IMG/VR virus record: IMGVR_UViG_3300022696_000030
Coordinates: 1 to 42,392 of that record
From: a virus
DNA length: 42,392 nucleotides
Strand: one strand, 5' to 3'
Part shown: in pieces, positions 4,218 through 39,800 of the stretch
Numbering within the stretch: the stretch's first letter is position 1
Layout of the letters: each line of letters begins with the position of its first letter
The notes under the pieces: generated by a model
What the model saw: the letters and a program-made list of their open reading frames with translations, nothing else
What the model was told of the DNA's origin: nothing
Database searches by the model: none
Position numbers and translations under genes: made by a program

Positions 4218-4471
4218 TGAGCAACCGAGTGATTACCGAGCTGCCGACCGTCTGTGACGACATCGACGTGTCGGGCTCTGACTGGGAGTCCCCCGATGGG
4301 GACGCCTACGCCGTCTATGTAGGTACCGCCGGCGATGTGGTCGTTCGGCCCGCAGGGTCTGACAGCGATGTGACGTTCACCGTCGCGGCGAACGAGACCA
4401 TCCTGCCGTGTCTCGTCACGGCTGTGCGCACGGCCTCTACGACTGCATCGGGGATTAAGGTCCTGCGATGA
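4217..4471 (+). CDS. Spike-base-like protein, 84 aa
   Basis: ATG 4217 overlaps the preceding stop (TGATG). The C-terminal two thirds, AVYVGTAGDVVVRPAG then VTFTVAANETILPCLVTAVR and TASTTASGIKVL, follow the pattern of the small spike base proteins of gene transfer agents and phages (RCAP_Rcc01079-like: YVGtgGDv..., VTF..vp.g.iLPirV.rV...gTTA). These beta-rich proteins sit where spikes join the tail or capsid. The match is from memory of the family, not a search. The position directly before two spike genes supports it. Confidence 0.55.
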   Translation: MSNRVITELPTVCDDIDVSGSDWESPDGDAYAVYVGTAGDVVVRPAGSDSDVTFTVAANETILPCLVTAVRTASTTASGIKVLR

Positions 4472-5367
4472 GGCTCGGCCTTGGCATAGACCTCCCCGCA
4501 CGAGGCACTCCATTTCCGGGGTATGGACCCCCCGGTAGTGCCGGCGGTGGCGGCGGTGGCGCCGGGCTTGACATCTCCACGTTCACCGATCGTGGGATCA
4601 GTTGGGAGCCGGTTAGTGGGATCAACTCCCTTACATGGAAGGATGACGGCACGAGGCTTTATTTCAACGAGTCAGGGGAGGACCGTCGAGGACAGAGTGC
4701 GGTATTTGCTTCTGCATATACCCCGGCAGGGTTTGCACAAGTTTATGAGACCCAATTTGCTGAGACCTTTAACCGGGTTGATAAGCTGGACCCCACTGGC
4801 GTGCATTTCCTTTATTACGGCGGTCTTGACAAGCGGATAAGGCATTACACGTGCCTAACCGCGTGGGATCTTAGCTTAATTTCGGAGCAAGAAAATAACC
4901 TGTTGGGGGTACAGACTACTTTCACCCTGTCAAAGACGGTATTTAGTGGCGGGATGATGTATGGCGACAGCGGTAATCGACTTTACTACCTTGTCGCTAC
5001 CAATGGCATTTTGCACGAAATCGACTTGTCCGCCGACCCATATAACGTCCTCGAAGTCTCCGATGCCAATATCCTTGCTAGTGTAAACCTCCGTACAGAG
5101 GTCTTTGCTTTGGCTACTGGTAATTTCTATGGTATTGACATCTCGACTGACGGCACAAAATTACTTGGGTACGATTCTGGTAGTGATTACATCTACCAAG
5201 GCACCCTAGAGACCCCGTGGGATATTACGACTCTAGTGGATGATGAAATACGCCTAAATATCGGCCCCGCCGCTAGTGGGTTTGCCCTTAGCCAAGACTT
5301 AAAGCATATAGCCATGCGTGTAGGCACTGGAGTCCGTGTTTATAGCGCACCGGGATGGGACGCATGA
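4468..5367 (+). CDS. Beta-propeller spike/adsorption protein 1, 299 aa
   Basis: ATG 4468 overlaps the previous stop (ATGA-type). The N-terminal ~30 residues (GLGIDLPARGTPFPGYGPPG then a Gly run) form a short anchor and flexible linker. The rest is a series of propeller-like blades with recurring DGTKLL / DGTRLYF strands and TPWDITT / TAWDLSL turns. There is no signal peptide, so it is probably carried on the virion. The following gene has the same anchor (identical over 82 bp) and a different propeller. Codons here are more A/T-ending than in the capsid genes, suggesting separate acquisition. Receptor or glycan binding is inferred. Confidence 0.65.
   Translation: MRLGLGIDLPARGTPFPGYGPPGSAGGGGGGAGLDISTFTDRGISWEPVSGINSLTWKDDGTRLYFNESGEDRRGQSAVFASAYTPAGFAQVYETQFAETFNRVDKLDPTGVHFLYYGGLDKRIRHYTCLTAWDLSLISEQENNLLGVQTTFTLSKTVFSGGMMYGDSGNRLYYLVATNGILHEIDLSADPYNVLEVSDANILASVNLRTEVFALATGNFYGIDISTDGTKLLGYDSGSDYIYQGTLETPWDITTLVDDEIRLNIGPAASGFALSQDLKHIAMRVGTGVRVYSAPGWDA
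4480..4561 (+). repeat. 82-bp perfect direct repeat, copy 1 (spike anchor)
   Basis: Identical base for base to 5379-5460, at an 899-bp offset. It encodes LGIDLPARGTPFPGYGPPGS and the Gly-rich linker at the start of the two propeller spikes. The flanks differ immediately outside. Confidence 0.9.
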
Positions 5368-6269
5368 GCAGGATTGGACTTGGCATAGACCTCCCCGCAC
5401 GAGGCACTCCATTTCCGGGGTATGGACCCCCCGGTAGTGCCGGCGGTGGCGGCGGTGGCGGGGCTGCGTCATTCTCTCTCGAAACCGCAGCGTTCGTAGC
5501 ATCCTACCCCCTTGCTTCATTGATTAATGGGCAGGAGATCAATGTCTCGTCTGACGGGATGCATGTTTACGTTTTGGATGCCGTAACGGATGGTATAAGG
5601 CAGTACGACCTATCGACTGCTTTTGATTTTTCCACAATGTCGGCTAACGGGGCGACGGACTTCATTCCTACCGAAACTAACGCATACCACTTTCACATAA
5701 GTAGTGATGGCGTCTATGTTTACATAGGTGGGATCGCGGGCGATACAATCTTTCAGTACGAATTGACCACGCCATGGGACATAAATGGCGGGCATACTTT
5801 GGTTGGATCACTGGACTACGCAGCCCTTGCTGATGCAGAGCCGTCTGTCGGATTGGGGACCGGCAACATGGACATCAGTAATGATGGGAAGCACGTGATC
5901 TTCTCAGATAGCCCGGAAATAGTGTCTTACTACACACTCGGCACTGCATGGGACATAGGAACCGTCACAGATGCTACCTATGTTGGTGCGCTCAATACCA
6001 CTACAGTTATTGGGTTTAGCATCTCTCTGGAAGACATCAAGTACAATGAAGACGGCACCAAGGTGTTTGCACTTAGCAGCAGCAATGTTGTCTATGAACT
6101 AGACTTATCAACTCCCTATGACGTAACCACTGCCACATACAGCGGGTTTTCGCTAGACATGTCCAGCCAAGACGCCGACATCGACGCAATCGATGTTCTG
6201 GATGGCGGCAATGGTATTGTATCTACCGGCAGCAATGACGACGACCTGAACCTATACCAAGAGGCGTGA
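5364..6269 (+). CDS. Beta-propeller spike/adsorption protein 2, 301 aa
   Basis: ATG 5364 overlaps the previous stop (ATGA); an ATG nine bases upstream is less likely. Layout matches spike 1: short anchor, GGGGGGG linker, then propeller blades with the repeated signature of SSDG.(H/Y)VY, QYDLST and TPWDI (SSDGMHVYVLD, SSDGVYVYIGG, NEDGTKVFALS). These repeats resemble lactonase/YVTN-like propellers used by many phages and surface proteins. It differs from spike 1 over most of its length but shares the anchor exactly, so it is a paralog with an exchanged head. The role is probably host-surface recognition. Confidence 0.65.
   Translation: MSRIGLGIDLPARGTPFPGYGPPGSAGGGGGGGAASFSLETAAFVASYPLASLINGQEINVSSDGMHVYVLDAVTDGIRQYDLSTAFDFSTMSANGATDFIPTETNAYHFHISSDGVYVYIGGIAGDTIFQYELTTPWDINGGHTLVGSLDYAALADAEPSVGLGTGNMDISNDGKHVIFSDSPEIVSYYTLGTAWDIGTVTDATYVGALNTTTVIGFSISLEDIKYNEDGTKVFALSSSNVVYELDLSTPYDVTTATYSGFSLDMSSQDADIDAIDVLDGGNGIVSTGSNDDDLNLYQEA
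5379..5460 (+). repeat. 82-bp perfect direct repeat, copy 2 (spike anchor)
   Basis: Second copy of the repeat at 4480-4561. It could support homologous recombination that deletes one spike or swaps heads. Confidence 0.9.
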
Positions 6270-6270
6270 T

Positions 6271-6732
6271 ATGAAATTCAAAAAGGCCGCGACCTACATC
6301 GTCATCCTGTTCGTGCTGCTGTTCGCTGTGGCGCACTGCGTGGAGGCTGCTGACTTCTCTGCCGGCTCTGCAACTGACAGCTACACGGAGTACGATGGAG
6401 AAGCTGTGTTCTATTCTGACCGGCTGGCGCTGACGAACTGGCACGCAGGCTTCGGGTGGGTGAACGAACGGGAGTACGATGGACGATTTGTCGATCAGAA
6501 CGGAATGGCTTTCATCGAGCGACGAGTCGGGCTATCCCGATGTGAGCTTGGCCTTGGACTGGCTTATCTCCACCGTACCGACTACATCCAAGGATCGAAC
6601 TTCAATTATACTCTTTCCGCAGCCTGCCGAGTGCTGGGGCCTGTCTGGCTCGGCGCAAGGCATTTTTCTAATGCAGGGACAGCCGACCCTAATCGTGGCT
6701 ACGACTTCCTGCTCCTGACTTGGAGGTTCTGA
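6271..6732 (+). CDS. PagL-like lipid A deacylase (outer-membrane acyloxyacyl hydrolase), 153 aa
   Basis: PagL removes the 3-O acyl chain of lipid A from within the outer membrane. The product has a signal peptide (MKFKK, hydrophobic core to about residue 22, then VEAADFS) and a size typical of PagL. The rest is short beta strands of an 8-stranded barrel ending in aromatic WRF. The catalytic signature is clear: RHFSNAG with His131, Ser133 and Asn134. Asp145 sits 14 residues after the His, where the Pseudomonas enzyme has the Glu of its triad, a conservative change. AGAGG precedes ATG 6271. It follows the spike genes, so it may alter LPS receptors after infection. Enzyme activity is inferred. 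Confidence 0.75.
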   Translation: MKFKKAATYIVILFVLLFAVAHCVEAADFSAGSATDSYTEYDGEAVFYSDRLALTNWHAGFGWVNEREYDGRFVDQNGMAFIERRVGLSRCELGLGLAYLHRTDYIQGSNFNYTLSAACRVLGPVWLGARHFSNAGTADPNRGYDFLLLTWRF

Positions 6733-6968
6733 TGGGACCACTGACCCCCCTCGAATTCTGGTGCGCCGTGTATATCGGCGCCACTGCCATTCCGACGCTG
6801 GTCGGCCTACTCACGATCTTTCATTGGGTGAAGCCCAAGCCGGGTATTGACCAGTCGAACGTCATCAACCGCATTCGCCTGTGGTGGCTCGCCCTGACCC
6901 GCCCCGGCAAGTTCGCCGAGTTCTTCCCTTGGCTGCTCGAAGACGAGTGGGACAACATCAATGACTGA
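6732..6968 (+). CDS. Small membrane protein, 78 aa
   Basis: ATG 6732 overlaps the deacylase stop (TGATG) and has GGAGG five bases upstream. One transmembrane helix is visible near the N-terminus (WCAVYIGATAIPTLVGLLTI), followed by a soluble tail with RLWWLALTRPGKFAEFFPW. The coupling to the PagL-like gene suggests a shared role at the envelope, but I recognise no family. Confidence 0.6.
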   Translation: MGPLTPLEFWCAVYIGATAIPTLVGLLTIFHWVKPKPGIDQSNVINRIRLWWLALTRPGKFAEFFPWLLEDEWDNIND

Positions 6969-7203
6969 CCGGGTTGTTTACTCGGGGGTCGTCATGGTCC
7001 CCCAGAAGGTCCGTGTGACTGCGAAGAACAGGAAGGACGCCAGACTGTCGGTGGAAGACGCTTTCGCCAAGAAGACGATCACTATCGTCGAGAAGGATGG
7101 AGAGCAGACAGTGTACCCGGCGAAACTGCTCGAGCTCCGCGACACGGGCTTGCGCGAGAAACACGAAGAGCCTGAGCCATGGACCCCTCCCGAGATCGCA
7201 TAA
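6961..7203 (+). CDS. Hypothetical protein, 80 aa
   Basis: Overlaps the preceding gene by 8 bp. The N-terminal half looks like beta strands (RVVYSGVVMVPQKVRVTA) and then a helix (RKDARLSVEDAFAKK), with a strand TITIVEKDGEQTVYPAK and an acidic, Pro-rich end. It resembles small phage proteins of unknown function. It is the last gene before a 100-bp gap with a strong hairpin (7208-7226). Confidence 0.55.
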   Translation: MTDRVVYSGVVMVPQKVRVTAKNRKDARLSVEDAFAKKTITIVEKDGEQTVYPAKLLELRDTGLREKHEEPEPWTPPEIA

Positions 7204-7226
7204 AAAAGGCCCCTGCGAGAGGGGCC
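7202..7226 (-). terminator. Hairpin with U-tract on minus strand
   Basis: GGCCCCT / AGGGGCC arms (7208-7214 and 7220-7226) around a 5-base loop. On the minus strand this is followed by six T, a typical terminator layout, but no minus-strand gene lies to its right. On the plus strand it would be a 7-bp hairpin without a U-tract just after the stop at 7203, perhaps an attenuator or mRNA-end stabiliser between the envelope genes and the glycan genes. Confidence 0.5.
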
Positions 7227-7305
7227 AATGCGACCGAGGAAACGACGGTCTGAGGTGCAGGGGCAGTATAACTCCTGAGACATATTTCGCAACCGGGTTT
7301 ATAAC

Positions 7306-7884
7306 ATGATTGCTATTGGAGTCGGTCTTCCCAAGACGGGAACCTCCAGCCTCGCCAAGGCGCTTTCCAGTGCCGGCGTCAACGCCTTCCACCAGCGGTT
7401 CCGCAAAGACTACCCGCATGTCGGCGAGCTCATGTATCAGGCATGGAAGGAAGAGCTCCCCATCGATGAGTACACTGTCGGCATGGTGGAGGCTGTCACA
7501 CAACTGGACACGTTGCGCGATGGGAAGAGCATCTGGCCACAGCTCGATTACGAGTTTCTCTGCGCATGTGTGAAGCAGTTCCCCAACATCGTACCGATTC
7601 TGCACACACGTGACCCGAAAAAGACGCTGAACTCGATCAAGCGATGGAAGGACCTCCGTACACGCATTGAGAGGGCGCCCGGACTGCATGCCGGCTGCAC
7701 TGACTCGATGGTGATCGACTGGATTGAGAACCACTACAAGAACGTGAGCCGAATCTTCAGCCACAGCCCTCGATATGTCCGATTTGATGTAGAGGACGAC
7801 CCGATCGACATCAAGGACAAGCTCAGCAAGGCACTGGGGCGCAAGGTCACATGGTGGGGAGTGGAAAATGCGAATCCTCGATGA
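7306..7884 (+). CDS. P-loop sulfotransferase-like protein, 192 aa
   Basis: Sulfotransferases move sulfate from PAPS to a sugar or other acceptor. The N-terminus has the 5'-phosphosulfate loop GLPKTGTSSL (Lys10, Thr13, Ser14). The 3'-phosphate-binding motif follows at residues 102-110 (Arg102 to Ser110 in TRDPKKTLNS), with the R-x7-S spacing of the family. The C-terminal VTWWGVENANPR fits the usual substrate-loop end. The size is near minimal for the family. No good Shine-Dalgarno precedes ATG 7306, and a TATAAC touches the start codon, so initiation is unusual. It leads the transferase operon; the acceptor is probably a surface or virion glycan. Confidence 0.75.
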   Translation: MIAIGVGLPKTGTSSLAKALSSAGVNAFHQRFRKDYPHVGELMYQAWKEELPIDEYTVGMVEAVTQLDTLRDGKSIWPQLDYEFLCACVKQFPNIVPILHTRDPKKTLNSIKRWKDLRTRIERAPGLHAGCTDSMVIDWIENHYKNVSRIFSHSPRYVRFDVEDDPIDIKDKLSKALGRKVTWWGVENANPR

Positions 7885-9166
7885 GGAAGAGACCCTCGAC
7901 GCGGTTTTGCAGGGTGGGTCAATCACCCGCTTCGGCGATGGTGAGTTCAAGATCGCCCACGGTGCCAAGATCAAATCGCAGGAGGCTGATCCAGAGCTTG
8001 CGAAGCGCCTACGGTGGATTCTGCGGCGGGAAGGCCCGTGGATCACTGCAATCCCCCGGGTGATCCCTGATACGCCCAAAGGCGACTACTGGAAGGACTT
8101 CATGTCCCGCCCGTGGGTGAAGAGGTACCTCGGCAGCTACCAGTACGGCTCAGCCCTCATCACCCGCCCTGACTCCGCACCCCATATCATGCGACCCGAG
8201 TACTTCAAGAAGGTCACGCAGATATGGCAGGGACGTAGGGTCTGTCTCATTTGGGGCGGCTCTACCAAATCGCTCATGCCGTGGATGCTGCGAGACGCTG
8301 AGCATCTGGACATCATCACTGCCCCGGGGCGCCATGCGTGGGCTGACCATAAGCGCATCCTCGCCCAAGTCGAGGCACTACCGAAGAAGCCCGACGTGTG
8401 CATCCTCACACTGGGGCCGACAGCGACTGCACTGGTCCCCGACATCCACAATATGGGGATACAGGCGGTTGATCTTGGACACATTGGCATGTGGTTGAGG
8501 AGAGTCATGAAAGAGAGGAAAGGGTTCAATGCAAGGCACGGATACTTCTGGCCGCGTGGAGCTGAGGAATACGGGAAGCGCTACATCGACCGAGCGCCCG
8601 ACATGGACACAGCTATCTCCCTATGTCGTGATACGAGGTCGGCCATCCAAGCGGGGGGTCACGTTGGCGTGTGGCCCAAGTACCTCGCCGAGAGGTTCAG
8701 CCGGGTCTACACGTTCGAGCCCGAGATGCTGAATTTCCAAGCACTCAACATGAACTGCACCGAGCAGAACATTTATCGGCTTCAGGCTGCACTCGGCTTC
8801 GAGCGCACGCCCGTAAAGATCGTCGTCCACCCTGCCAATATCGGCGGGAACCATGTTAGCGGTGTGGGGCGAGTTCCTTGTCTGCGGATCGATGATCTGG
8901 CGCTGCGCGATGTGGACCTAATTGTGCTGGATGTGGAGGGATCGGAACTCGCCGCGATTTACGGCGCAGTAGATACGATTAAGCTCTGCAAGCCGGTGAT
9001 TCACATGGAGGCCCGTGGCCACATCGAGAAATACAACCGGGGCACTACCGAAGAACTACACTCTGTATTGAGGACGCTGGGATACGAAAAGCATGGCGAC
9101 ATCCACAAAGACGAAGTATGGACCAATCCCAACCCACCTGAAGACGCCGATCAAGAAGACGATTGA
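7868..9166 (+). CDS. GT-D-type glycosyltransferase / FkbM methyltransferase fusion, 432 aa
   Basis: Two domains. Residues ~10-240 carry the GT-D signature ITRFGDGEF (residues 19-27) and a Rossmann-like LIWGGST segment, as in the DUF1792/GT-D glycosyltransferases. Residues ~255-420 are an FkbM-type SAM-dependent methyltransferase: GGHVGVWPKYLAERF in motif I position, TFEPE (Phe283-Glu284-Pro285), IDDLAL and LDVEGSEL (Asp355, Glu357, Glu360). Such fusions could add a sugar and O-methylate it. The start overlaps the sulfotransferase gene by 17 bp. Motif I is less canonical than usual, so methyltransferase activity is likely but unproven. Confidence 0.75.
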   Translation: MRILDEEETLDAVLQGGSITRFGDGEFKIAHGAKIKSQEADPELAKRLRWILRREGPWITAIPRVIPDTPKGDYWKDFMSRPWVKRYLGSYQYGSALITRPDSAPHIMRPEYFKKVTQIWQGRRVCLIWGGSTKSLMPWMLRDAEHLDIITAPGRHAWADHKRILAQVEALPKKPDVCILTLGPTATALVPDIHNMGIQAVDLGHIGMWLRRVMKERKGFNARHGYFWPRGAEEYGKRYIDRAPDMDTAISLCRDTRSAIQAGGHVGVWPKYLAERFSRVYTFEPEMLNFQALNMNCTEQNIYRLQAALGFERTPVKIVVHPANIGGNHVSGVGRVPCLRIDDLALRDVDLIVLDVEGSELAAIYGAVDTIKLCKPVIHMEARGHIEKYNRGTTEELHSVLRTLGYEKHGDIHKDEVWTNPNPPEDADQEDD

Positions 9167-9278
9167 AGGGAACCAAGAGGCGCTGTCCTATATCCGTGGG
9201 GCGGCGCAGGTTTACCGAGGAACCAAGACTGGCGACATACTGATGAAGGTGATTCAGAAATGTACGACCTCAACCTGA
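9093..9278 (+). CDS. Possible small protein, 61 aa
   Basis: An open frame starts inside the end of the GT-D/FkbM gene and fills the 93-bp gap before the next gene, overlapping it by 19 bp. The second half (GNQEALSYIRGAAQVYRGTK, then TGDILMKVIQK) looks protein-like. The first half is the shifted reading of the fusion gene, and no clear ribosome site precedes ATG 9093. It may be a real small gene or a relic of a longer protein. Confidence 0.35.
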   Translation: MATSTKTKYGPIPTHLKTPIKKTIEGNQEALSYIRGAAQVYRGTKTGDILMKVIQKCTTST

Positions 9279-9979
9279 TCTACCCCTACTACAAAAACCC
9301 GATGATGCTGCTCGAGCAGTGTCGCCGATGGGTGCTGTGGCCGCAGGAGCTGAAGCGTAGAGTGCGGATCGTGATCGTTGACGACGGCACGCCCGATGAC
9401 CAGTGTGTGAACACGATCATGGAGCACCAAGAGCACCTACCCGACGTGAAGGTCTACAAGGTCCTGAAGAATATCCCATGGAACCAGAACGGTGCCCGGA
9501 ACCTTGCGATGGAAGCCGTCGATGGGTGGTGCCTGATTACCGACATGGATCATGTCCTGCTGTGGCCGATGGCGGGCCGGATCATCACCATGGATAAGAA
9601 CAAGGACTTTGTGTACCGCCCTGCACGGCGGCAAGTCCGTGATATGGGGGATCGGAACTACAAGCGCCACCCCAATTCGTGGATTATGACCGCGGATCGC
9701 TATTGGTACGCCGGCGGCATGGACGAGGACTTTTGCGGCTGGTACGGTAGCGACTCGACCTTCCGGAAGGCGATCGAGCTCAATGGCCCCATCAAGGAAA
9801 TCGAGGAGTACCTTGTCGTCTACGACGAAGAGGACATCGATGACGCCAACACGCGAGACCTCGGGCGCAAGCACACAGAGTACTACTCGGTGAATAACCC
9901 GAAGTTGCAGGCCAAGCGCCGGTCACCCGGCTACAAGGCCGAGAACCCAATCCGATTCCCATGGAGGAGAGTGCTGTGA
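9260..9979 (+). CDS. Family 2-like glycosyltransferase (GT-A fold), 239 aa
   Basis: Transfers a sugar from a nucleotide donor. Visible landmarks are an N-terminal strand and loop (LNLIYPYYKNP), VIVDDGTPDD (Asp41-Asp42 for the nucleotide), NGARNLAME, the metal-binding DMDH at residues 95-98 and the acceptor-side GGMDEDFCGWYGSDS. This order is typical of small GT2 or galactosyltransferase-like enzymes. AAGGTGA precedes ATG 9260. There are no membrane segments, so it acts in the cytoplasm. It sits between the GT-D/FkbM fusion and a degenerate FkbM-like gene in one operon. Confidence 0.75.
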   Translation: MYDLNLIYPYYKNPMMLLEQCRRWVLWPQELKRRVRIVIVDDGTPDDQCVNTIMEHQEHLPDVKVYKVLKNIPWNQNGARNLAMEAVDGWCLITDMDHVLLWPMAGRIITMDKNKDFVYRPARRQVRDMGDRNYKRHPNSWIMTADRYWYAGGMDEDFCGWYGSDSTFRKAIELNGPIKEIEEYLVVYDEEDIDDANTRDLGRKHTEYYSVNNPKLQAKRRSPGYKAENPIRFPWRRVL

Positions 9980-10437
9980 GTCTGTGGAGGATTTGCCCAC
10001 GGGCGAAAGAGCAGTCAGCCGTCATCACGCAAGCTGGAGGAGCGAGGTTCCCCAACTGGCTTGCGCTCTACTTTCGTCACGTAGTCGCTGCTGAATCCCG
10101 TCCGGATGAATGGGAGGACCTCGACCACAACAAAGCGACAGCAGACATTGAAACTCATCCAGCCCGTTTCGGTCGTAGTCAGGGCAAGGTCAGCGGAATC
10201 CCTACGCTACTCATCGATAACCTCCGCCTGCCTGATTGCGGGCTTATCGTTTTCAATGACGAGGAGATGGCACCCTTCGCTTTCTACGGGGCCATCGCCA
10301 CCCTGAACAACGCCAAGCCGGTTATTGCGTTGAACAAACACAGTTCGCTTCAGAGCGCAATTCACCGGTATGGATACCGGCGGCGCCAGCAGATTCAGGG
10401 GTTTATTTTTTACACATTGGAGGCGACTCATGCTTAG
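9976..10437 (+). CDS. Degenerate FkbM-like C-terminal half, 153 aa
   Basis: GTG 9976 overlaps the preceding stop (GTGA) with GGAGGAGA upstream; an in-frame ATG at 9961 is the alternative. The segment GIPTLLIDNLRLPDCGLIVF, then FYGAIATLNNAKPVIAL, aligns with the FkbM domain of the gene at 7868 (RVPCLRIDDLALRDVDLIVL, IYGAVDTIKLCKPVI). However, the acidic core LDVEGSE is replaced by FNDEEMA, and the SAM-binding N-terminal half is absent. It is either a decayed methyltransferase that kept an open frame or a regulatory/structural partner of the transferases. Confidence 0.55.
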   Translation: MSLWRICPRAKEQSAVITQAGGARFPNWLALYFRHVVAAESRPDEWEDLDHNKATADIETHPARFGRSQGKVSGIPTLLIDNLRLPDCGLIVFNDEEMAPFAFYGAIATLNNAKPVIALNKHSSLQSAIHRYGYRRRQQIQGFIFYTLEATHA

Positions 10438-11137
10438 GGTAGTCTGCTGGCTTTGGGAACCGAGACCCGGCTACCGGAGCAAGTTCAATGCAGGACATGT
10501 GGAAATCCTTTACAACATGGTTGAGCGGAATTACCGCAAACCCTTTGAGATGGTCTGCATCACTGATCGACCTAGCGATATTGACTCTCGCATTCGGAGT
10601 ATTCCTCTCTGGGATACGTTTGCTGACCTTGTTTCTCCTCATGGTGAACGTCAGCCTGCGTGCTATCGCCGGCTCCGTGCATTCTCGCCTGAAATGTCGG
10701 AAGTCATCGGACCAAGATTCGTCTCCATAGACCTCGATACAGTAATCGTCGGAGACATCACTGACATCTGGTCCCGGGACGAAGAGTTCATCATCTGGGG
10801 TAGCCAGCTTCGCAACACACCGTACAATGGCTCCATGTGGATGATGGACGCCGGCGCGAGGAAGCAGGTATATGAGCAGTTTCACCCTAAAATTAGCCCT
10901 TCGCTTGCCAAGCGTGCCGGGCACCAAGGCTCGGATCAGGCATGGTTCACGTATATACTCGGACCCAACGAGGCGATGTGGACGCCTGATGATGGAGTTC
11001 TTGCGTGGCGGACGGACCTGAAGCGCAGGAACTTCGAGCTCCCCGACCATGCCAAGATCGTCTTCTTCCAAGGCCATACGGACCCGTGGGACAAGGAGGC
11101 TCAGGTCCGTGAGTGGGTAAGAGAGAACTACAGATGA
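10430..11137 (+). CDS. GT8-like glycosyltransferase (GT-A fold), 235 aa
   Basis: ATG 10430 is preferred over ATG 10370: it follows GGAGGCGA and overlaps the previous stop by 8 bp. Key features are the N-terminal LRVVCWLWEP strand and VCITDRP, the metal-binding DLD at residues 101-103 (SIDLDTVIVGDI), the acceptor-side NGSMWMMDAG and QGSDQAWFTYIL, and a C-terminal HTDPWDKE. The pattern resembles GT8 and related phage or capsule transferases. It is the last gene of the glycan island; its stop overlaps the terminase start (ATGA), so it is transcribed into the packaging genes. Confidence 0.7.
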   Translation: MLRVVCWLWEPRPGYRSKFNAGHVEILYNMVERNYRKPFEMVCITDRPSDIDSRIRSIPLWDTFADLVSPHGERQPACYRRLRAFSPEMSEVIGPRFVSIDLDTVIVGDITDIWSRDEEFIIWGSQLRNTPYNGSMWMMDAGARKQVYEQFHPKISPSLAKRAGHQGSDQAWFTYILGPNEAMWTPDDGVLAWRTDLKRRNFELPDHAKIVFFQGHTDPWDKEAQVREWVRENYR

Positions 11138-12558
11138 AAAGTGGCGATGCGAACCCGAATGCGGTCAACTACGTAACACCCCCGACAGTGGGGGATTTTA
11201 TGTTGGATGAGAGCTTCGTCCGGCTCATCATGGGGCCTGTCGGTTCAGGTAAATCGGCTGGTTGCTTTATGGAGCTCTTGCGACGAGCAAAGATGCAGGA
11301 GCCGAACGCCCAAGGCATCCGCCAGACCCGCTTCGCCATAGTGCGTAACACGCTTCAGCAGCTCCGTCAGACCTGCCTCGCGGATATTCAGCAGTGGCTC
11401 CAGCCCATCACCCAGTACAAGACTACGGACGCCACCATACGTGTCAGGATGCCTCTCGAGGACGGCACCCGGGTGGAGTCAGACTGGATGCTGATCCCCC
11501 TCGACTCGAAAGAGGACCAGCAGCGCCTCCTGTCGCTCAACCTCACAGGTGCGTGGGTGTCAGAGTTCCGAGAGGTTAAACTGTCGCTGATCGATGCCAT
11601 CGCAGGCCGTCTTGGCCGTTTTCCAGCAAAGGCTGTTGCACCTGTGACGTGGTTCGGGATCGTGGCCGAGTCCAACCCGCCTGACGAGGATTCTGAATGG
11701 TGGATGAAGATGGAGGAAGACCTCCCCGATAGTTGGGCTCTCTTCAAGCAGCCCGGAGGACTAGACCCTGATGCAGAGAACATCGAGAACCTTCCACCGA
11801 ATTACTACGAGAACCTCGCGGCCACTAACAATTCTGATTGGGTCGATATTCACGTTCATGCCAAGTACGGAAAATCCCTCGGTGGTCAAGCTGTTTTCCG
11901 TGCCTCATTCAAACCCGATTTTCATCTCGACAAGCGGGCGAACTGGGAACCGATCGAAGGGCTCCCGATAATGATCGCTCAGGACTTTGGGCGGACACCT
12001 GCGGCCCTCATATCGCAGATGGACACCCGGGGCCGGCTGATCGTGTTTGACGAGGTGTGTGCAGTGGACTGCGGTATTGAGCAGTTTGCCAAGGAGTACC
12101 TGCGTCCGCTGATCTACCAGAAGTACTCTGGCCGGAACATCTTTATGGTGGGCGACCCGGCTGGCCGGTACAAAGGGCAGGTTGGGGAGGAGTCCCCGTT
12201 CGAGTGTCTGGAGCGGCTGGGCTTCCTCATTATGCCTGCCGCGACCAACGACCTTGACCCACGCCTGAGAGCGGTCGAGACCCTTCTGCTCCAGCAGCGT
12301 GACGGCAAGCCGGCGCTGGTGATCTGTCAGGACACGTGCCCAACCTTGTCACTGGCGATGAAGTCGAAGTACCGCTACAAGCGGAAGCAGAACGACGAGC
12401 TGGACGACAAGCCTGAGAAGAGCCACCCGTGGTCAGACGTGGCAGACTGCCTTCAGTACCTATGCCTGTCGGCGAACACCAACATGGTTGGGAAGGTCAT
12501 GCGGAAGATCAACCCGCCTGAGCGCCGGCAACCGCCGCCGGTGGCGAGCTGGACCTAA
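11134..12558 (+). CDS. terL: Terminase large subunit, 474 aa
   Basis: The DNA-packaging motor and headful/end nuclease. The ATPase domain has Walker A GPVGSGKS (Gly34-Ser41) and a Walker-B-like TGAWVSEFRE with the acidic residue Glu144. The RNase-H-like nuclease domain has IAQDFGRT (Asp284), MVGDPAG (Asp341) and WSDVADCLQY (Asp435/Asp438), which could provide its metal ligands. Length fits podoviral TerL. ATG 11134 overlaps the preceding stop (ATGA). Its stop overlaps that of a minus-strand gene by three bases. Confidence 0.95.
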   Translation: MKSGDANPNAVNYVTPPTVGDFMLDESFVRLIMGPVGSGKSAGCFMELLRRAKMQEPNAQGIRQTRFAIVRNTLQQLRQTCLADIQQWLQPITQYKTTDATIRVRMPLEDGTRVESDWMLIPLDSKEDQQRLLSLNLTGAWVSEFREVKLSLIDAIAGRLGRFPAKAVAPVTWFGIVAESNPPDEDSEWWMKMEEDLPDSWALFKQPGGLDPDAENIENLPPNYYENLAATNNSDWVDIHVHAKYGKSLGGQAVFRASFKPDFHLDKRANWEPIEGLPIMIAQDFGRTPAALISQMDTRGRLIVFDEVCAVDCGIEQFAKEYLRPLIYQKYSGRNIFMVGDPAGRYKGQVGEESPFECLERLGFLIMPAATNDLDPRLRAVETLLLQQRDGKPALVICQDTCPTLSLAMKSKYRYKRKQNDELDDKPEKSHPWSDVADCLQYLCLSANTNMVGKVMRKINPPERRQPPPVASWT

Positions 12559-13028
12559 GCCGTCTCGCCTTCGATCGCTTCAGGACGTGCCCGGACCTCA
12601 CCGTCCCGGGTGTTGATGCTGATGTTGACGGCGAAACCGCCCCCACCCGGGCCACCCTCTGCGCCATTCTTGTTCCGGCCTGCATTTGCAGCCATCTGCT
12701 TGATCGCGTCCAGCCGGGCGGCTGTGGCCATGTCTTTCGAGTGAGCGATCTCATCCAGCACCGGTAGGGCGTCTTCCAGCATAAGCTCGGATTTCAGGGT
12801 GATCCGGTGGCTGGCGTTCAGGTCCCCCGACAGCTTCTCGATGGACTGCTTCAACATCTTCTTGAAGAACGGGGACTTTTTCATCCGTTCCCACTGATCT
12901 TCTGTCAGGTTGTACTTACGCAGGATTTCGTCCTGAGTCGTCAGCCCCGCTGCCAGCTCCACACATATCGTGGGAGATAGCTGCATGAAATCTACGGAGT
13001 CATCGAGGGTGGCGATTTCGTTTTCCAT
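12555..13028 (-). CDS. Possible terminase small subunit on the opposite strand, 157 aa
   Basis: The N-terminal 60 residues look like a helix-turn-helix of the small-terminase kind (ELAAGLTTQDEILRKYNL, then TEDQWERMKKSPFFKKML). A helical middle (LPVLDEIAHSKDMATAARLD) follows, then a Gly-rich linker and a strand-rich tail (FAVNISINTRDG). Small terminases bind packaging sites and feed TerL. The gene lies between terL and the portal but on the other strand, converging on terL and diverging from the portal, which is unusual. The alternative is a DNA-binding regulator of late genes. Confidence 0.5.
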   Translation of the reverse strand: MENEIATLDDSVDFMQLSPTICVELAAGLTTQDEILRKYNLTEDQWERMKKSPFFKKMLKQSIEKLSGDLNASHRITLKSELMLEDALPVLDEIAHSKDMATAARLDAIKQMAANAGRNKNGAEGGPGGGGFAVNISINTRDGEVRARPEAIEGETA

Positions 13029-30826: not shown

Positions 30827-33800
30827 ATGGCTCGGAATCCATATCTCGAAGAATTCGAGGGGTATTTTGGGCCGACTGATCCATATGATCCGATCGACAC
30901 TTCCCCCTTCGCCACCGACGTTCCCAGTCGGTCGGCGCTGCCTGTCAATCAGGACGACCCCACCACTGAGGGGCTCGATGACCTGACGGCGATCATCGAC
31001 AGTGCGCTGGCGAATGCCCGCACTCCCGTACCCGAAGGGGAAGGCAAGTCCGCTCTCGACCTGCCCAAGGCTTTCGCTGCCGGTGCGCTGAACACCGTCG
31101 GCGACTTGGGCATCGGCGTTCTTGAGTATGGGGCACGCCAAGCGGGACTGACCGACGAGGCCGAGGTTCTCGCTGAAGGCCGGCGGGGGCTGGGCCGTGG
31201 CGCTGACTGGCTACTTGGCACCATGTCTGAGGAAGCTCAGCAGGGCATCGCCAAGCAGATACTGTCGCTCGACCCGAACAAGTCCATCTGGCGTGGAGGA
31301 GTCTGGGACACAATTACCAACCTCGGCCTGAAGGTAGCGCAGACCCTGCCGTCGAGCCTCGCCACCATGCTGCCTGCCGCACGTCTGTTCAAGGCCGGCA
31401 TGAAGCCCGGGGCCATCACTTACCTCGGTGCGTCCGAGGGTGGTATGTCCGTTGGTGGTATCGCTAGTGGTATCGCCGACGAGATCGAGAGCATGTCCTA
31501 CGAGGAGCTATACTCGGAGTCTGACCGATTCCGTCAGCTCATGGGGGAGCTCAACGATGAGGATCAGGCGAGGGCAGAACTTACTCGAGAGGCACAGGGC
31601 ATGGCACCGGCTGTTGGTGGTGCGCTGGTTGGCGCTATCGGTGCAACCGCCGGACGCTACCTCGAGCCAGTCATCACAGGTGTCAGAAGGAACGCAGCCG
31701 GCGAGATGGTGGAAGAAGGCGCAGGACTCGCGTCCCGATTCGGTCGCGGCTTCCTCGCAGAGGCCCCGCAGGAAGGCACCCAGTCACCTGCCGAGACCAT
31801 CGCCCAGAACTACGCGGCCCAAGCCTACGACGCCGACCGAGAGCTGACGGCTGGCGCAGCCGAGTCCGCAGCCGAGGGCACCCTCATCGGTGGCCTCATC
31901 GGTGGTGGCTTCACCTCTGTGTCCGGCAAACGTCCGACGCCGCCGGAGCCCCCGCCGCAGATGCAGGAGCCGCCGGAGGGGTTCACTGGACCACGGGCAC
32001 CTCGAGACACCGGTGAGCCTTTCGAAGACGTGTTCGGCCCCGGCGGCGTGCCCCAAGAGGAAGGCACTGCTACGTTCTTGCCGGCACTTCAGATGGCGGA
32101 CGAGCTCAATCAGGTCCGCGGTACCGACGCCGACATAGCTGCTGCCGCCCAGAACCTCTCCGATGTCAACACACAAGTAGCACAGTTGGAGCAAGAGTAC
32201 GCCACGGCCCAGCAGCAGCTTGCCCGGGCCGAGCAGGCACTCAATCGCCCAGCCAAGCAGGAGAGCACGACCGAGAAGCGCCGGGCCGCTGTCCGGAAGG
32301 CTATGACACGTGTGCGTCAGGTTGAGAATGAGCTGAAGCGCATGCGCGGCGAGCAGACCCGGGCCGAGCGTGCCTCGATCGACGCCGACACAGCCGCCGC
32401 AGCCGCCAACATACGTCAGGACAACATGATGGGGGACCTGTTCGAGGCTACCCCTGAGCCCGGCCCGCGCAGCGAAGACCCTGCTGAGGTGGCGATCCGT
32501 AACGAGCAGCTCCCTCTCACAGGTGGCATAGACACAGACCCCCGGTCGGGCCGAGACCTGTCCCCCAGCCGCGAGTTCACGAACAAGTGGACCGCCGGCT
32601 TCGTGCCGGAAGAGATGGCCGGACAGCAGGAGTTCCTTCCGTTCCCGGGACCCCGGCGCCGTGGGGTTGGCCGGACTACTGAACGTCTGGGAGGTACTCA
32701 GGTACCCACCCAGCAGCCTGCACTCCCGGGCGACGAGGAGCTCAACGCCGTCATCGACTCGGCCCTTCAGGGTGCATCGGTTGCCCCGGGAGAGGACGTG
32801 GCGCTGCTGGCCCGCCGCCGTGAAGGTACCCTGCCGCAGACCACCACCCCGGAGGAACGCTACCAAGCCGGGCAGGAGGACCTGTTCCGCGAGGATGTCC
32901 CTGTCGAGCAGGAGACCGAGACCCAGCGTCCGCCCGCCCGGGCCGTCACCGCTGCCGAGGTTGCAGCCGTTCGGGGCGAGCGCCCGTTCCTCCTCACCGT
33001 CACCGACGACGAGGGGAATCAGGTTGGGCAGGAGGTCTACGAGACAGCCGAAGAAGCCAACACGTGGCAGGAGTTCTACTACGAGAACTTCCCCGACTAC
33101 AACTACACCATCACCCGTCCCCGCCGGGAGGAGATCAAGACCGGCTCGGCACTTGAGGACGTGCGTACCATACAGGCTGTGCGAGACTCCGAGGCGGCTG
33201 ACCGCCGGCGTGGTCGCCCGAAGACGGCTGAGCGTGGCCCGACGGAGCAGGCCCGTACCCAGACAGAAACCCAGCGGGAGCTGACGTTCGAGGAGCGCAC
33301 GGACATCCCTCGGGGCCGGCGGGCACCGCGGACCACCGCACAGGCGGCTGCACGTCTGGTAGGCGAGCAGGTACGTCAGGCACGTGAGGCAGAGACTCGC
33401 CGGATCGGTGGCTTCTACAATCCGGATGATCTGGTCTGGGAGCCCCCCAAGGTACGTGAGGAGGATCAGGCCGCAGCCCAGAAGGCTACTGATCGTGCCG
33501 AGAAGCGGTACCGCGATGCATGGGGCGCCCTCGTAGACGCCGAGATCACGCTGGAGCTGAGCGGGGACTCCCAGCAGCGTGGGCAGGCCAACCTGATCCG
33601 CGATGCCGCACTGGAGGAGCTGGCCAAGGTGCGCCGCATGGCCCGGCCCAAGCGCAGGACTGAGCAGCTTCAAGCTGCTGCCAAGCTCGAGCCCCGGGTG
33701 AAAGAGGAGCTGTCCGACGCTGTGCGTAAGCGTGGGCGCCAGCGGACCCCCGAGGAGCAGGAGGTCGATGAATACGTCGCTACGCCAGAGGAGCGTAAGA

Positions 33801-36800
33801 CCGCCGAAGAGTCCGGCTTGCAGTTGGCCGAGGACGTGGAGGCCATGGACCGACTGGCCCGGGAGCTGGATGTCGAGTCTCGTGACACACTCCTCAACAT
33901 CACTGACGAGCGGCTGGATCAGCTCAACGATACCTCCAAGAAGAAGACTCCCGCCGGCGAAAAGGCGAAGGAGATCATCGATGACCTGTTCGAGTTGGCT
34001 ATCGAGTTCCAGTCCGGCCTCGCCAAGACTGTGAGAAACGCCATTGCGGATCAGGCACGGGGGCAGGCGAAGAGCCCGCAGGACCGCCTGAAAGAGCTCC
34101 GTGCCAAGGACCAGCGGGATGCCCTGACTGCCTCAGAGCTCCGAGAGATGCAGTCGCTGGAGGAAGAGCAGCGCTTGATGAAGGAGACCTTCGGCACAGA
34201 GAGCGCACAGGCGGAAGGCCCCACCACGCCGTCCGAGCTGACCGGTGAGTCGGCTACATGGGCGGACGTGAAAGAGGCGGTAGACGAAGGCATTGTGGAC
34301 CTCCCCGACTTCGACCCGCTGGCGTTCAGCGGACTCGAGGATGTGGGCCTCGGCAACATCGCACCGAAGACGCGGAAGCAGTTCCTCACCCCTGCCAATC
34401 GCTTGAAGTTCATCCGTCGCATGCGGGTCACTGCGCTGCGGCAGGAGGCCGGTGGTAAGCAGGGAGGTGGCCGACTCGTCGCCGACGCTACGCAGGGCGA
34501 GCCGGTACCGTACCGTACCGAGACATTCGAGGCGGAGAACAAGGCGGATGCATACGCCAAGGAGATGGCGCAGAAGTTCCCGACCGCACGGATCGACATC
34601 GAGCAGACGGACGCTGGCTTCACTGTCACCGTCGAGCTCCAGCCCCAGCCGCAGGCGAAGAGTCGCTACACCACGGTGGGCATGGTGGCCGAGGCACGTC
34701 CGCAGGACGAGTCCAAGTCCCAGCGCCTTGCACGTGAGAAAGCAGCCAAGGAGCAGCTCAAGCGTGTCAAGAAGTCTGTCACCGCTGCCACCTCCTACGT
34801 CAAGAAGGTGAACAAGGACCCCGAGTTCGTCCAAGAACTCGGTCGCCTGAAAGAAGATGGCACGGGGCTATCGAAACGCTCCGCTGACATCCTCGCCGGG
34901 CGTGCCTATTTCATGCAGATGATCCAATACGCCGAGGCTCTCGCCAGCTCTGAGAAGCTGACCAAGGAAGCCCGGCAGGACATGGAGCGCATCGCCAACT
35001 GGCTGGACAAGTACACCAACCTGCCCGCCGACAAGTTCGCCAACAAGATGGCGCAGATGTTCCGTGCGCAGGGCCGGGATGCACGCAACGCCCTCAAGGG
35101 TGTAGCAGGTAAGAAGACGCTGAGCGCCATCTCCAGCGAGGATGAGCGCCTGCGTACCATGGCGCAGACCAATGAGCGGATCGAGAAGGAAGCGGAGTAC
35201 ATCCGCCGGTTCGAGAACAAGTGGGTCAAGTCCAAGCTCTACCGTGACACGATTCGTCCGCTGATCCAGAAGTTCCACTATGACCCTCAGTACATGCCGT
35301 CCCCGCAGGAGCTGGAGGACGTGAAGCACGCCATGGACAAGTGGCTGACCTCTGACTACGAAGGGTTCTACAAGCCCATCAAGCCCCTGCTGGCTGACTA
35401 CGGGTTTGCCTTCGCCGAGAAGGACGGCTACTGGGTGCAGGACACCGGTGCCCCGCCTGCTACAGGTACGGCGGCAGAGCGTGCTGCTGCCCGTCAGGCA
35501 GTGGACCCCGAGAAGTTCTTCAAGGTCATCCCGAAGACCAAAGTCGAGGATGCCGGCTACCCGAAGGAGCAGCAGCAGTTGGTGCGCAAGGGCGAGGTGC
35601 TCCTTGCCCGTAAGCCGAACGGTGACGCTTACCACATCCGTGGGGAGAACATGCTCCAGCGTGAGTACACCAAGATGTTTGGTGACATGCCTGAGACAAA
35701 CAGCGTACTCCCCAGCACGATCAGGTCCATGGCCGACGTGCAGACGGAGCAGCGCCGACTCCAAGCTGCCAAGGAGGACCGGCCTCCCAACCGGAACGAG
35801 CTTGCTGCCCAGCGGAACCAAGGCGCTGCCATGCGACGTGCCCGCCTCGCCGGCATCATCGACAAGTTTAAGGCCACGGTAGCTCCCGCCAAGGTGACGA
35901 TCGACGGCATCGTGAAGGCAGAGAATGCGTTCGTCCGCCGTATGCAGGAGCTGGGCGCATGGACTCAGATCAACGACACCATGGCCACCATCCAGACCGG
36001 CTTCGGTAAGACCCGGAGCTACCGCCTCGTCGGCCCCCGCCTCCAGAGCCGGGAGCTGACCAAGGCTGAGGCCAAGGACCTGATCGCCAAACTGGAGCCG
36101 GCCAAGCTGACCAAGCGCCAGCAGGAGCAGGTGGACCGTATACGTGACGAGGTTGTTTCGGGCGAGCAGACGGTCGCCGAGAAGCTACAACAGGTGTACG
36201 ACCAAGAGGCTGCACCTCTGCTTGAGGCGCTGGACCTCGTGGACAACGCCGTCGATTACCGGGAGGCAGCATCCGCCGCGGCCAACCCGATGAACGATCG
36301 CACTGCGAATGTCCGGCTGAATGAAGTCCTCGGCCCGATGATCGAGAACCTGCCGAAGGACAGCCCGTGGCGCCCCATCGCTCAGCGTATGTTCGAGCTG
36401 GGTATGGATGACGTACTCATCTCCTACGACTGGGGTGGCAACCTTGGCACAGAGGCGGGCAAGTTCTTCTCGCGTGTCTACCCCATGCAGGGCGAGGACC
36501 GGTTCATCCTCATCAACCAGAAGACCATCGACCAGCTCCGCAAGGAGGGCAAGAATGCAGACGCCGTGTTCATCCATACGGTGCTGCACGAGGCTTCGCA
36601 CGCCGCCACGATCGGTGAGATGGAGAGCAACCCAGCGCTGAAAGACGCCATGACCCAGCTTCAGCAGACGGCTCGCAAGGAGTTTGAGGCACTGGGTATC
36701 GAGCTGCCGTATGGCTTCCGTGAAGAGGACAATGTGAATGAGTTCGTGGCCGAAGCGTTCACCAACATCGTCACCCAGCGTAAGCTGAAGCAGGTTCGTG

Positions 36801-39800
36801 TTCCCGAACTGGGAACAGGCCGGACCTTCTGGGACAGGTTTGTCAAGCTCGTCAAGCAGGTATTCAACTGGGGCGACTCGGTTCCGGACAACCTTCTCGA
36901 GGCTGTGCTGATGACTGGCGAGCAGCTATTCACTGGCGCCGCTCGGGGTCGCTGGGGCCTGATGACCGCCAACCTCGAAGTCACGGACAACTACGTGAAG
37001 CCGAAGGTCACTGAGATCGTCAGCCGGCTGGACCAGTCGAGCACCGTGTTCCGTAGTGTTCGTCGCCGTGCCTCCGAGCTTGCTGCCCGGGGCCTGCGGG
37101 CACCGCTGGGCGCCCTGACCATGGAGCAGCTTCGTGACACGTTTGGGGATCGCTTCCAGTCGGCAGGTGACAACCCGCTGAAGCGGTACATGGAGAACTT
37201 CTTCCAGCGTAACTCGTACAACTCTGAGCTGATGGAGGAAGGTGAGCGCCTCTCTCGTAAGTGGACGGAGCTGGAAGAGAAGGACGTGAAGAACGGCACG
37301 ACCGAGGCGCTGGACGTATCCTACGCTGCCACCTTCGCCACTCTGTATCAGGTGACTCCTGATGCGGACATCACCGCTGAGCAGAACCAGCACCTCAAGT
37401 CTGACAAAGCCAAGGAGCGGTACTACGAGGCACGCAGGCTCTACGACAAGCTGAGCCCCGAAGCCAAGGACATCTATAAGACGGTGCGTGAGTACTACCG
37501 CAAGACGGTACGGCTCGAGAGTGCACTCGTCACGAGCAACGCCCTGCGTGGCGTACTGACCAAGGCCACCGATGCCCCGCTGGATGCCGAGGCGTTCAAC
37601 CAGCAGTTCACGCCGGAGAAGATCGAGCAGATGACCGACGAGCAGCTCTCCGATGCCGTCTCCCCGTACCTGAAGGAGAAGGAGCTGCGGGAAATCCTGC
37701 GCATGCACAGCATACCGAGGCAGTACTCGGGTGACTACTTCCCGCTGATGCGTTACGGCGACTTCGTTGTGTTCGGTACCAAAGAGCTGGAGAGCAAGTC
37801 CTTCACCGACGGCGATCAGGCATGGAAGTACGCCGGCCAGCGTCGTGAGGAAGACCCCACGCTCGACGTGAGTGTCCGGAAGGACGGCAACAAGTGGGTG
37901 GTCAAGACGGTCCTCAAGGACTTCCGTACAGGTGAGAGCTTCACTGAGGCCGAGCGTGCCAAGCGGGAGATGCAGGACGACAACCCGGGCATGAAGGTCA
38001 GCGCCGTACAGCGCAAGGCCCAGTTCGATGCCGGCTCCACGATCGAGACCAACTCTGCGCTCCAGTCCATTCTCAACACGCTTGGGGAGAACAAGGCAGC
38101 ACAGCAGGCGATCAAGGAGTTCTACCTGAAGACGCTGAGCGACCAGTCGTTCCGCAAGCACGAGATCAAGCGTAAGCAGCGTCGTGGTGTGGACTTCAAC
38201 CTTCAGCATCGAAACTTCGCCAACTACGCCAAGTCCTCCTCGTACTACATCGCCCAGCTTCGCTACGGCTGGCGCATGGCCGACGCCCTCGGCGACATGA
38301 ACACGTTCATCACCAAGCAGGAAGAGGGTGAGGGTGAGCTCGGCAAGGTGGCACGGCTAGGGGATGTCCACCGTGAGCTGGTGAAGCGCGACAACATGCA
38401 GGTCCAGCCGCCAGAGCTGATGAACATAGTCCGCGGTGGCACGGAGCTGGGTCAGTTTATGATGCTGACCTCGCCGTCGTACTGGATGATTAACGCCACG
38501 CAGCCATGGCTCGTGACCTTGCCGTGGATGGCGGCTCGCTATGGGTGGAAAGCATCGGGCGCCTCGCTTACTCGAGCACAGAAGCTCATCAAGCCAGAGC
38601 TCCTCAACCGCGCTGTGAAGTCCAAAGCCGGGCTCTCCGCCTTCATGTCCAAGGTGCAGGCAGAGGAAGCGTTCAACGTGCTTGACGAGGTGCTCGCAGG
38701 CATCGACCAGCGTGACCCGCAGAACGCCAAGGAGTATCGGGTCATGCTTGAGGAGCTGCGCCGCCACAGCGTCATCGACCTGTCGTGGATCGCAGAGCTA
38801 CGTGACATGGCCGAGGCCCGGAAGAACAACTTCAAGCAGCGCACACTCGACGCCTCGCGGATCATGGCCCACCTTACTGAGGTGAACAACCGCATCCTCG
38901 TATCCATCGCTGCATATGACATGAAACGGCAGGAAGCGCTCGCTGCCGGCGCCGGCGTTGAGTCTGCCATCGATCAGGCCACCGAGTATGCGAAGCAGGC
39001 TGTGTCCACCACACAGTTCAACTACTCGTCGGCGAACAAGCCGCGGTGGTTCCAGCCGGACGGGCCGATGGGTCCGCTCTCTCCGCTGGTCTTCCAGTTC
39101 ATGCAGTGGCCGCAGCACATGTACTTTATGATGATCTCCAATTCAGCCAAGGCGCTGAATGGGGACCGCGAAGCCATGAAGGTCCTGATGAATGTGTCAG
39201 CGACCCACCTCGCCGTAGGTGGCGTACTGGGCTGGGCACTCCAGCCGATCAAGGTTGCCATCGGTCTCCTCCTTGCCGGGCTCGATCCCGAGGACGAGGA
39301 GTGGACCTTGGCCAACGCTCTGTCAGGTGAGACCTTCGACCGCATCACTGAGCGGGGTATGGCAGAGGCATTCGGAACAGATTTGGGCGGCGTGATTTCC
39401 CGGGGTATACCCTCGGCACTGGGTACTGACCTGTCAGACCGGATGTCGCTGGGCACCCTGTACTTCCTCGACTTCCGTAGCGGCAACCCCGAGTCCGTGC
39501 TCGGCAGTCTGCTGCTCGGCTTCGGTGGCCCGATGGTCAGCATCGGCACGAACTTCTACAAGGGTGTGCAGGACTTCGGTAAGGGCGACCCGCTCCGCGG
39601 CCTCGAGCGCATGATGCCGAAGATGGCCAAGGACCTCTTCAAGGCTGGGAGGTACATGAACGAGGGGCTCGTGAACAATGCGGGCGACACCATGATCCCA
39701 GCCAGTGAGTTCGGCCCCTACGAGCTGTTCCTCCAGTCGCTCGGGTTCAACCTCGACGAGGTGAGCCGGGCCTACCGCAAGCAGGGCGTCATGGAAGGGG

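Follow-up and report, generated by a model that had tools for sequence, protein, structure and literature searches.

A gene cassette for predicted glycosyltransfer, methylation and sulfation beside the terminase gene of a podovirus-like phage, and its possible role in virion glycosylation

A viral record of the IMG/VR database (IMGVR_UViG_3300022696_000030; 42,392 bases, hereafter the window, to which all coordinates refer) contains a cassette of predicted glycan-modifying genes directly upstream of terL, the gene for the terminase large subunit. By gene content, as determined by Pfam and PHROG searches, the window derives from a podovirus-like phage. A previous sequence-only reading had described an island comprising a PagL-like deacylase, a sulfotransferase, a GT-D/FkbM fusion, a GT2 glycosyltransferase, an FkbM-like half-domain and a GT8-like transferase, and the six genes were found at the places it gave, all on the plus strand, through Pfam, PHROG, structure-model and profile matches (Table 1). 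The start of the GT8 gene was moved from 10370 to 10430, where GGAGG precedes an ATG. The run of overlapping genes from 7306 into terL was also recovered, with overlaps of 17, 4-19 and 8 nt within the cassette (7306-11137) and of 25 nt between GT8 and terL; the only break is a gap of 93 nt between the GT-D/FkbM fusion and GT2.

Table 1. Features of the island, its flanks and the remaining landmarks of the window
Feature	Position	Strand	Evidence
PagL-like lipid A 3-O-deacylase, signal peptide	6271..6732	+	PF09411, E 2e-7
Small open reading frame (ORF), one hydrophobic stretch	6732..6968	+	hydropathy 1.88; no family match
Small ORF	6961..7203	+	no convincing family match
Probable sulfotransferase, dependent on 3'-phosphoadenosine-5'-phosphosulfate (PAPS)	7306..7884	+	Sulfotransfer_4 PF17784, E 2e-8
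GT-D/FkbM fusion	7868..9166	+	PF08759, E 3e-29; Methyltransf_21, E 9e-11
GT2 glycosyltransferase	9260..9979	+	PF00535, E 1e-4
Degenerate FkbM domain	9976..10437 (longest ORF 9961-10437)	+	FkbM profile built here, E 5e-9
GT8-fold glycosyltransferase (predicted), last gene of the cassette	10430..11137	+	phrog_1962, E 1e-14
Terminase large subunit (terL), marks the location	11113..12558	+	phrog_2, E 2e-23
TerS-like protein (context)	12555..13028	-	position; relatives 45-51% identical at the same place; phrog_36773 only
Terminase and portal	~11-15 kb
Capsid	17.6 kb
Internal virion protein family	23 kb
Endolysin	25.8 kb
DNA transfer protein	40 kb

The Pfam score of the sulfotransferase exceeded the cut-off, and both the PKTGT loop and the R...S 3' phosphate site are present. 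Alignment showed that the motifs GLPKTGT and TRxPxxTxxSxxRW are common to the window and to two related contigs, L003 and L007, and the first matches of a structure model of low confidence (predicted local distance difference test, pLDDT, 62) were sulfotransferases; the protein is thus annotated as a probable PAPS-dependent enzyme. In the fusion protein, the GT-D domain occupies approximately residues 19-208 and the FkbM methyltransferase domain residues 277-407. The GT-D domain lies above the Pfam cut-off, matches PDB entries 5v4a and 4pfx (E 4e-19 and 3e-18, respectively), contains the RFGDGE and LGPTA...GHIG blocks when aligned to 5v4a and 4phr, and is closest to GalT1 of S. parasanguinis and to the NCBIfam SP_1767 family; the ORF also matches NCBIfam TIGR03728 and TIGR01444. 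The FkbM part keeps the S-adenosylmethionine (SAM) motif QAGGHxGxWP and the acidic block LDVEGSE, and the whole fusion is ~55% identical to its counterparts in L003 and L007.

GT2 scored 22.2 bits against a Pfam cut-off of 23.3 bits, about 1 bit short, and was supported by the family alignment, in which the VDD and DxD motifs are retained; its relatives in seven loci are 47-50% identical. The following gene, taken previously for half an FkbM domain, in fact spans the complete FkbM-like domain, from which an internal stretch has been deleted and motifs have been lost: alignment across the domain showed motif I shortened to GGARFP and DVEGYE replaced by NDEEMA. Since this ORF retains a ribosome-binding site for the GTG start at 9976, it is probably still translated. 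The last gene fell below the cut-off of the Pfam GT8 family (E 0.1). Its AlphaFold model (pLDDT 84) matched LgtC, glycogenin, 3tzt and other GT8 enzymes of the PDB (E ~1e-7), which confirmed the predicted GT8 fold, and the family alignment shows that the DxD motif is retained as DLD.

Relatives of terL and of the GT8 enzyme were compared. The terL search gave 12 loci. Contigs L003 and L007 have the gene order of the window from the sulfotransferase through terL, with proteins 40-56% identical; L004-L006 and L008-L010 carry variant cassettes beside the same terL, and the sister phages L002 and L013, with the same terL, have no GT8 gene near it. Hence, the cassette is accessory and variable. No contigs other than L003 and L007 yielded relatives of the sulfotransferase. 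Between these two contigs the ratio of non-synonymous to synonymous substitution rates (dN/dS) was 0.03-0.05 for the sulfotransferase, GT-D/FkbM, GT2 and GT8 genes and 0.02 for terL, and the intact FkbM counterpart was the least constrained of the set (0.20). The cassette enzymes are under purifying selection between L003 and L007, and the recurrence of order and proteins in independent contigs, together with these ratios, indicates that the cassette is not a chance assembly.

With the GT8 profile, 367 matching stretches were recorded in IMG/VR (80 of them retrieved), compared with only 5 loci in 85,000 genomes, so that the family is nearly confined to viruses. The five bacterial loci (Bradyrhizobium, an Actinomycetales metagenome-assembled genome, Alcaligenaceae, Rhizorhabdus and Luteimonas) are too distant to name the host, and the terL search of bacterial genomes gave no match. 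GT2 accompanied GT8 in 76 of 88 loci, some of which are one contig fetched twice; among the GT8-bearing loci scanned, 42 contained GT-D and 48 contained FkbM. Many SAM methyltransferases, nucleoside diphosphate (NDP)-sugar dehydratases, uridine diphosphate (UDP)-glucose dehydrogenase and MptE-like (PF01973) proteins are also encoded in these islands. Relatives of the GT8 enzyme thus occur in hundreds of uncultured phage contigs, and the exact combination of the window is rare. Some contigs have nucleotide-sugar enzymes of their own, either UDP-glucose dehydrogenase or a CapD-type dehydratase, in L010 (2-1764) and L018 (4752-5756) by Pfam, and in L021 (1148-1951) and L022 (4597-5565) as judged from the start of the sequence.

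The deacylase behaved differently. Its PagL profile match is above the cut-off, the HFSNA sequence (HxSNA motif) aligns with bacterial PagL relatives, and an Asp lies at +14, a position that is variable among the bacterial relatives compared; the product carries a predicted export signal and would be exported to the outer membrane. No PagL relative was detected in IMG/VR, 50,697 phage records, 72,556 plasmids or 26 related records. The search of other phages suggested by the sequence-only reading therefore recovered the order from sulfotransferase to terL but PagL in no other cassette phage, and its membership in the cassette was rejected; it is probably a separate gene or acquisition outside the conserved set. 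About 100 nt separate PagL and the two small ORFs from the sulfotransferase start. A strong GC hairpin lies in this interval (7208-7226), its T-run reading on the minus strand, and no minus-strand gene obviously terminates there. A promoter scan found no more sites than in shuffled sequence.

Of 27 loci from the podovirus group of the window, 23 have GT8 200 nt or less from terL, and 11 have terL in the opposite orientation, convergent with GT8; since GT8 adjoins terL even where terL is inverted, its place is conserved where co-transcription is not possible. Among GT8 loci without a terL of the window type, PHROG tallies placed portal (up to 21 of 85), capsid and protease families upstream and neck, adaptor, head-closure and major tail families downstream, counts that are not additive, as related PHROGs may count one ORF twice. 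Terminase, portal, capsid, GT8 and adaptor follow in this order in the prophage-like locus L097 (Alcaligenaceae strain CAII-56), and a head protease lies upstream in the prophage-like L095 (Bradyrhizobium JYMT SZCCT0428). Tail fibre and collagen-like families are near some cassettes.

Taken together, these results speak for a virion protein that is glycosylated in the cytosol rather than for the remodelling of lipopolysaccharide (LPS) or capsule. This preference rests on the head and packaging location, on the kinship of the GT-D domain, on the solubility of the enzymes (only 3 of 299 cassette enzymes exceeded the hydropathy cut-off for membrane segments) and on the lack of GtrA, Wzx-type flippase and Wzy/WaaL genes in 14 related records, several of them incomplete. 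We consider, with a probability of roughly 0.6, that the cassette directs the cytosolic assembly of a short oligosaccharide on a virion protein. The GT-D, GT2 and GT8-fold enzymes would draw on nucleotide sugars of the host to add sugars successively, O-methylation of a sugar would fall to the FkbM domain of the fusion protein, and the sulfotransferase would transfer sulfate from host PAPS. We infer the virion-protein acceptor, the order of the steps, the identity of the sugars and the placement of sulfate on the glycan. A fuller proposal is more tentative, and we hold it to be possible rather than probable: a sulfated and O-methylated oligosaccharide, synthesized wholly in the cytosol by the phage's own cassette, would cover the capsid or tail of the phage itself.

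Several points weigh against virion glycosylation. No acceptor was identified: a Ser/Thr-rich capsid extension, considered as an acceptor marker, was rejected when none was obvious in a comparison of capsids, cassette-positive and cassette-negative phages being alike, and no Ser/Thr-rich repeat was present in the structural proteins scanned. No initiating peptide O-glycosyltransferase could be named, Gtf1/2 not having been searched for, and a host flippase and ligase could supply the route to LPS. Co-transcription of the cassette with packaging genes is not general, as the convergent loci show. The enrichment of structural genes comes from tallies that lack a formal null, besides the double counting mentioned above, and most related contigs are fragments, so that the absence of a gene from them is soft.

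One alternative is that the cassette remodels host LPS or capsule, so as to exclude superinfecting phages or to mask receptors, and that PagL trims lipid A in the same programme. Phage glycosyltransferases that alter the O-antigen are well known, bacterial surface polysaccharides include sulfated and methylated sugars, and the PagL-like gene adjoins the cassette; set against this are the absence of PagL from every other cassette phage searched, the lack of GtrA, flippase and ligase genes in the 14 records, and soluble enzymes sited in the head and packaging regions of unrelated phages, which are usually expressed late. We therefore regard host-surface remodelling as unlikely. The enzyme classes and the methylated, sulfated glycan of the sequence-only reading are retained, and its LPS or capsule target is disfavoured with respect to the virion. 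Gtr-type serotype conversion in particular was rejected, given the lack of the same genes in those records. Modification of phage DNA bases is highly improbable. Glycosyltransferases of DNA-hypermodifying phages do exist, according to work cited in PMC12619734, but the families found here resemble protein and glycan glycosyltransferases, and no thymidylate synthase or hydroxymethylase family gene (PF00303) was present in the 14 records, eight of them of 56-66 kb and several incomplete. Accordingly, DNA glycosylation was discarded for want of a base-hydroxymethylating gene.

Two further possibilities concern the acceptor. If virion glycosylation is correct, the sugars might sit on a spike or fibre of the tail (for example, on the two spike-like proteins encoded at 4468-6269) rather than on the capsid, and tune adsorption. 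The spike-like genes lie directly upstream in the window, and the tail fibre and collagen-like families near some cassettes fit the same idea; yet several prophages and siphovirus-like loci have the cassette or its GT8 gene flanked by capsid genes on one side and connector genes on the other, and a relative of the spike-like proteins was found only in L013, which lacks GT8, so that this special case appears distinctly unlikely. The sulfotransferase, in turn, may work apart from the glycosyltransferases, its substrate being a tyrosine, a lipid or a small molecule. Its family accepts many acceptors and the gene is present in three contigs only, but it overlaps the GT-D/FkbM gene by 17 nt, likewise in L003 and L007, and we find sulfation away from the glycan rather doubtful.

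The sequence-only reading knew of no described phage system with this combination, which was too strong, since the Corndog-type mycobacteriophages (cluster O) are comparable: an O-methyltransferase, two glycosyltransferases and a GlcNAc (N-acetylglucosamine)-transferase are encoded between portal and protease, and the few capsid peptides recovered were read by the authors as possible modification (PMC4351075). Capsid and tail-tube glycans are reported for mycobacteriophages such as Che8 (PMC11256854, PMC12619734). Like phages of the Corndog and Che8 kind, the window has glycosyltransferase and O-methyltransferase genes in its head and structural region; unlike Corndog, it is a podovirus whose cassette lies near terL and includes a sulfotransferase and a GT-D/FkbM fusion. 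Mycobacteriophage homologues of GT8, GT2 and GT-D/FkbM were absent from the tblastn matches. By description, the chlorovirus PBCV-1 is also similar, as it encodes cytosolic glycosyltransferases, one of which is fused to a methyltransferase and caps the capsid glycan (the GT-GT-methyltransferase fusion A064R; PMC7019647), although PBCV-1 is a eukaryotic virus and its glycan is N-linked to a jelly-roll capsid protein.

The GT-D domain (DUF1792) is homologous to those of dGT1 and GalT1 in the streptococcal Fap1 system. There, dGT1, which has a second glycosyltransferase domain, glycosylates the adhesin Fap1 (PMC5063993), and enzymes of the GalT1/GT-D type act in stepwise O-glycosylation of the adhesin (PMC5063993, PMC5207161); sugars are there added to a protein one after another, as proposed for the window. 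The same combination of GT-D with a second glycosyltransferase, in reversed order, is found in L018 and L022, where GT2 is fused to GT-D, whereas in the window GT-D is joined to FkbM. In contrast to Fap1, no serine-rich repeat acceptor was seen in the scanned structural proteins of the window. Tetraselmis viridis virus S20/SI1 has homologous GT8, GT2, GT-D and FkbM genes among its head genes; unlike in the window, its GT-D and methyltransferase genes are separate, its packaging lineage is another, and no sulfotransferase match was obtained. An algal host is listed for S20 (L014, NC_020840), yet its head and tail genes are of the siphovirus type, and it appears to be a bacteriophage that came from the culture. 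The Gtr serotype-converting cassettes are alike in that phage glycosyltransferases alter a glycan, and unlike in that neither GtrA in the records searched nor membrane-bound glycosyltransferases accompany the present genes. In the literature searched, neither the combination of a sulfotransferase with such a cassette nor a sulfated phage virion glycan is described.

Glycosylation of phage virions is known mainly from mycobacteriophages. If the mobile GT8/GT2/GT-D/FkbM cassette among head and packaging genes acts on virions, many environmental phages would carry tailored glycans on their particles, and virion glycosylation would be common far outside mycobacteriophages; such a coat could alter how stable the particles are and how they adsorb, stick to surfaces or are grazed. 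If the host surface is the target instead, a new surface modification would be at hand. The cassette also offers soluble enzymes for building glycans.

Other features of the window were noted. Between the plus-strand genes terL and portal, the TerS-like gene is encoded on the minus strand, and its position is conserved. In Rhizobium phage RHph_TM3_14A terL is also reversed relative to portal, as in the 11 relatives of the 27 loci, and terL alone seems to be inverted in the clade of the window. The spike-like pair (4468-5367 and 5355-6269) shares a near-identical start, GLGIDLPARGTPFPGYGPPGSAGGGGGG, and differs in the remainder, as if two heads were set on one common anchor. Finally, positions 30827-40057 form a single ORF of 3076 amino acids, which probably encodes a giant internal or ejected virion protein.

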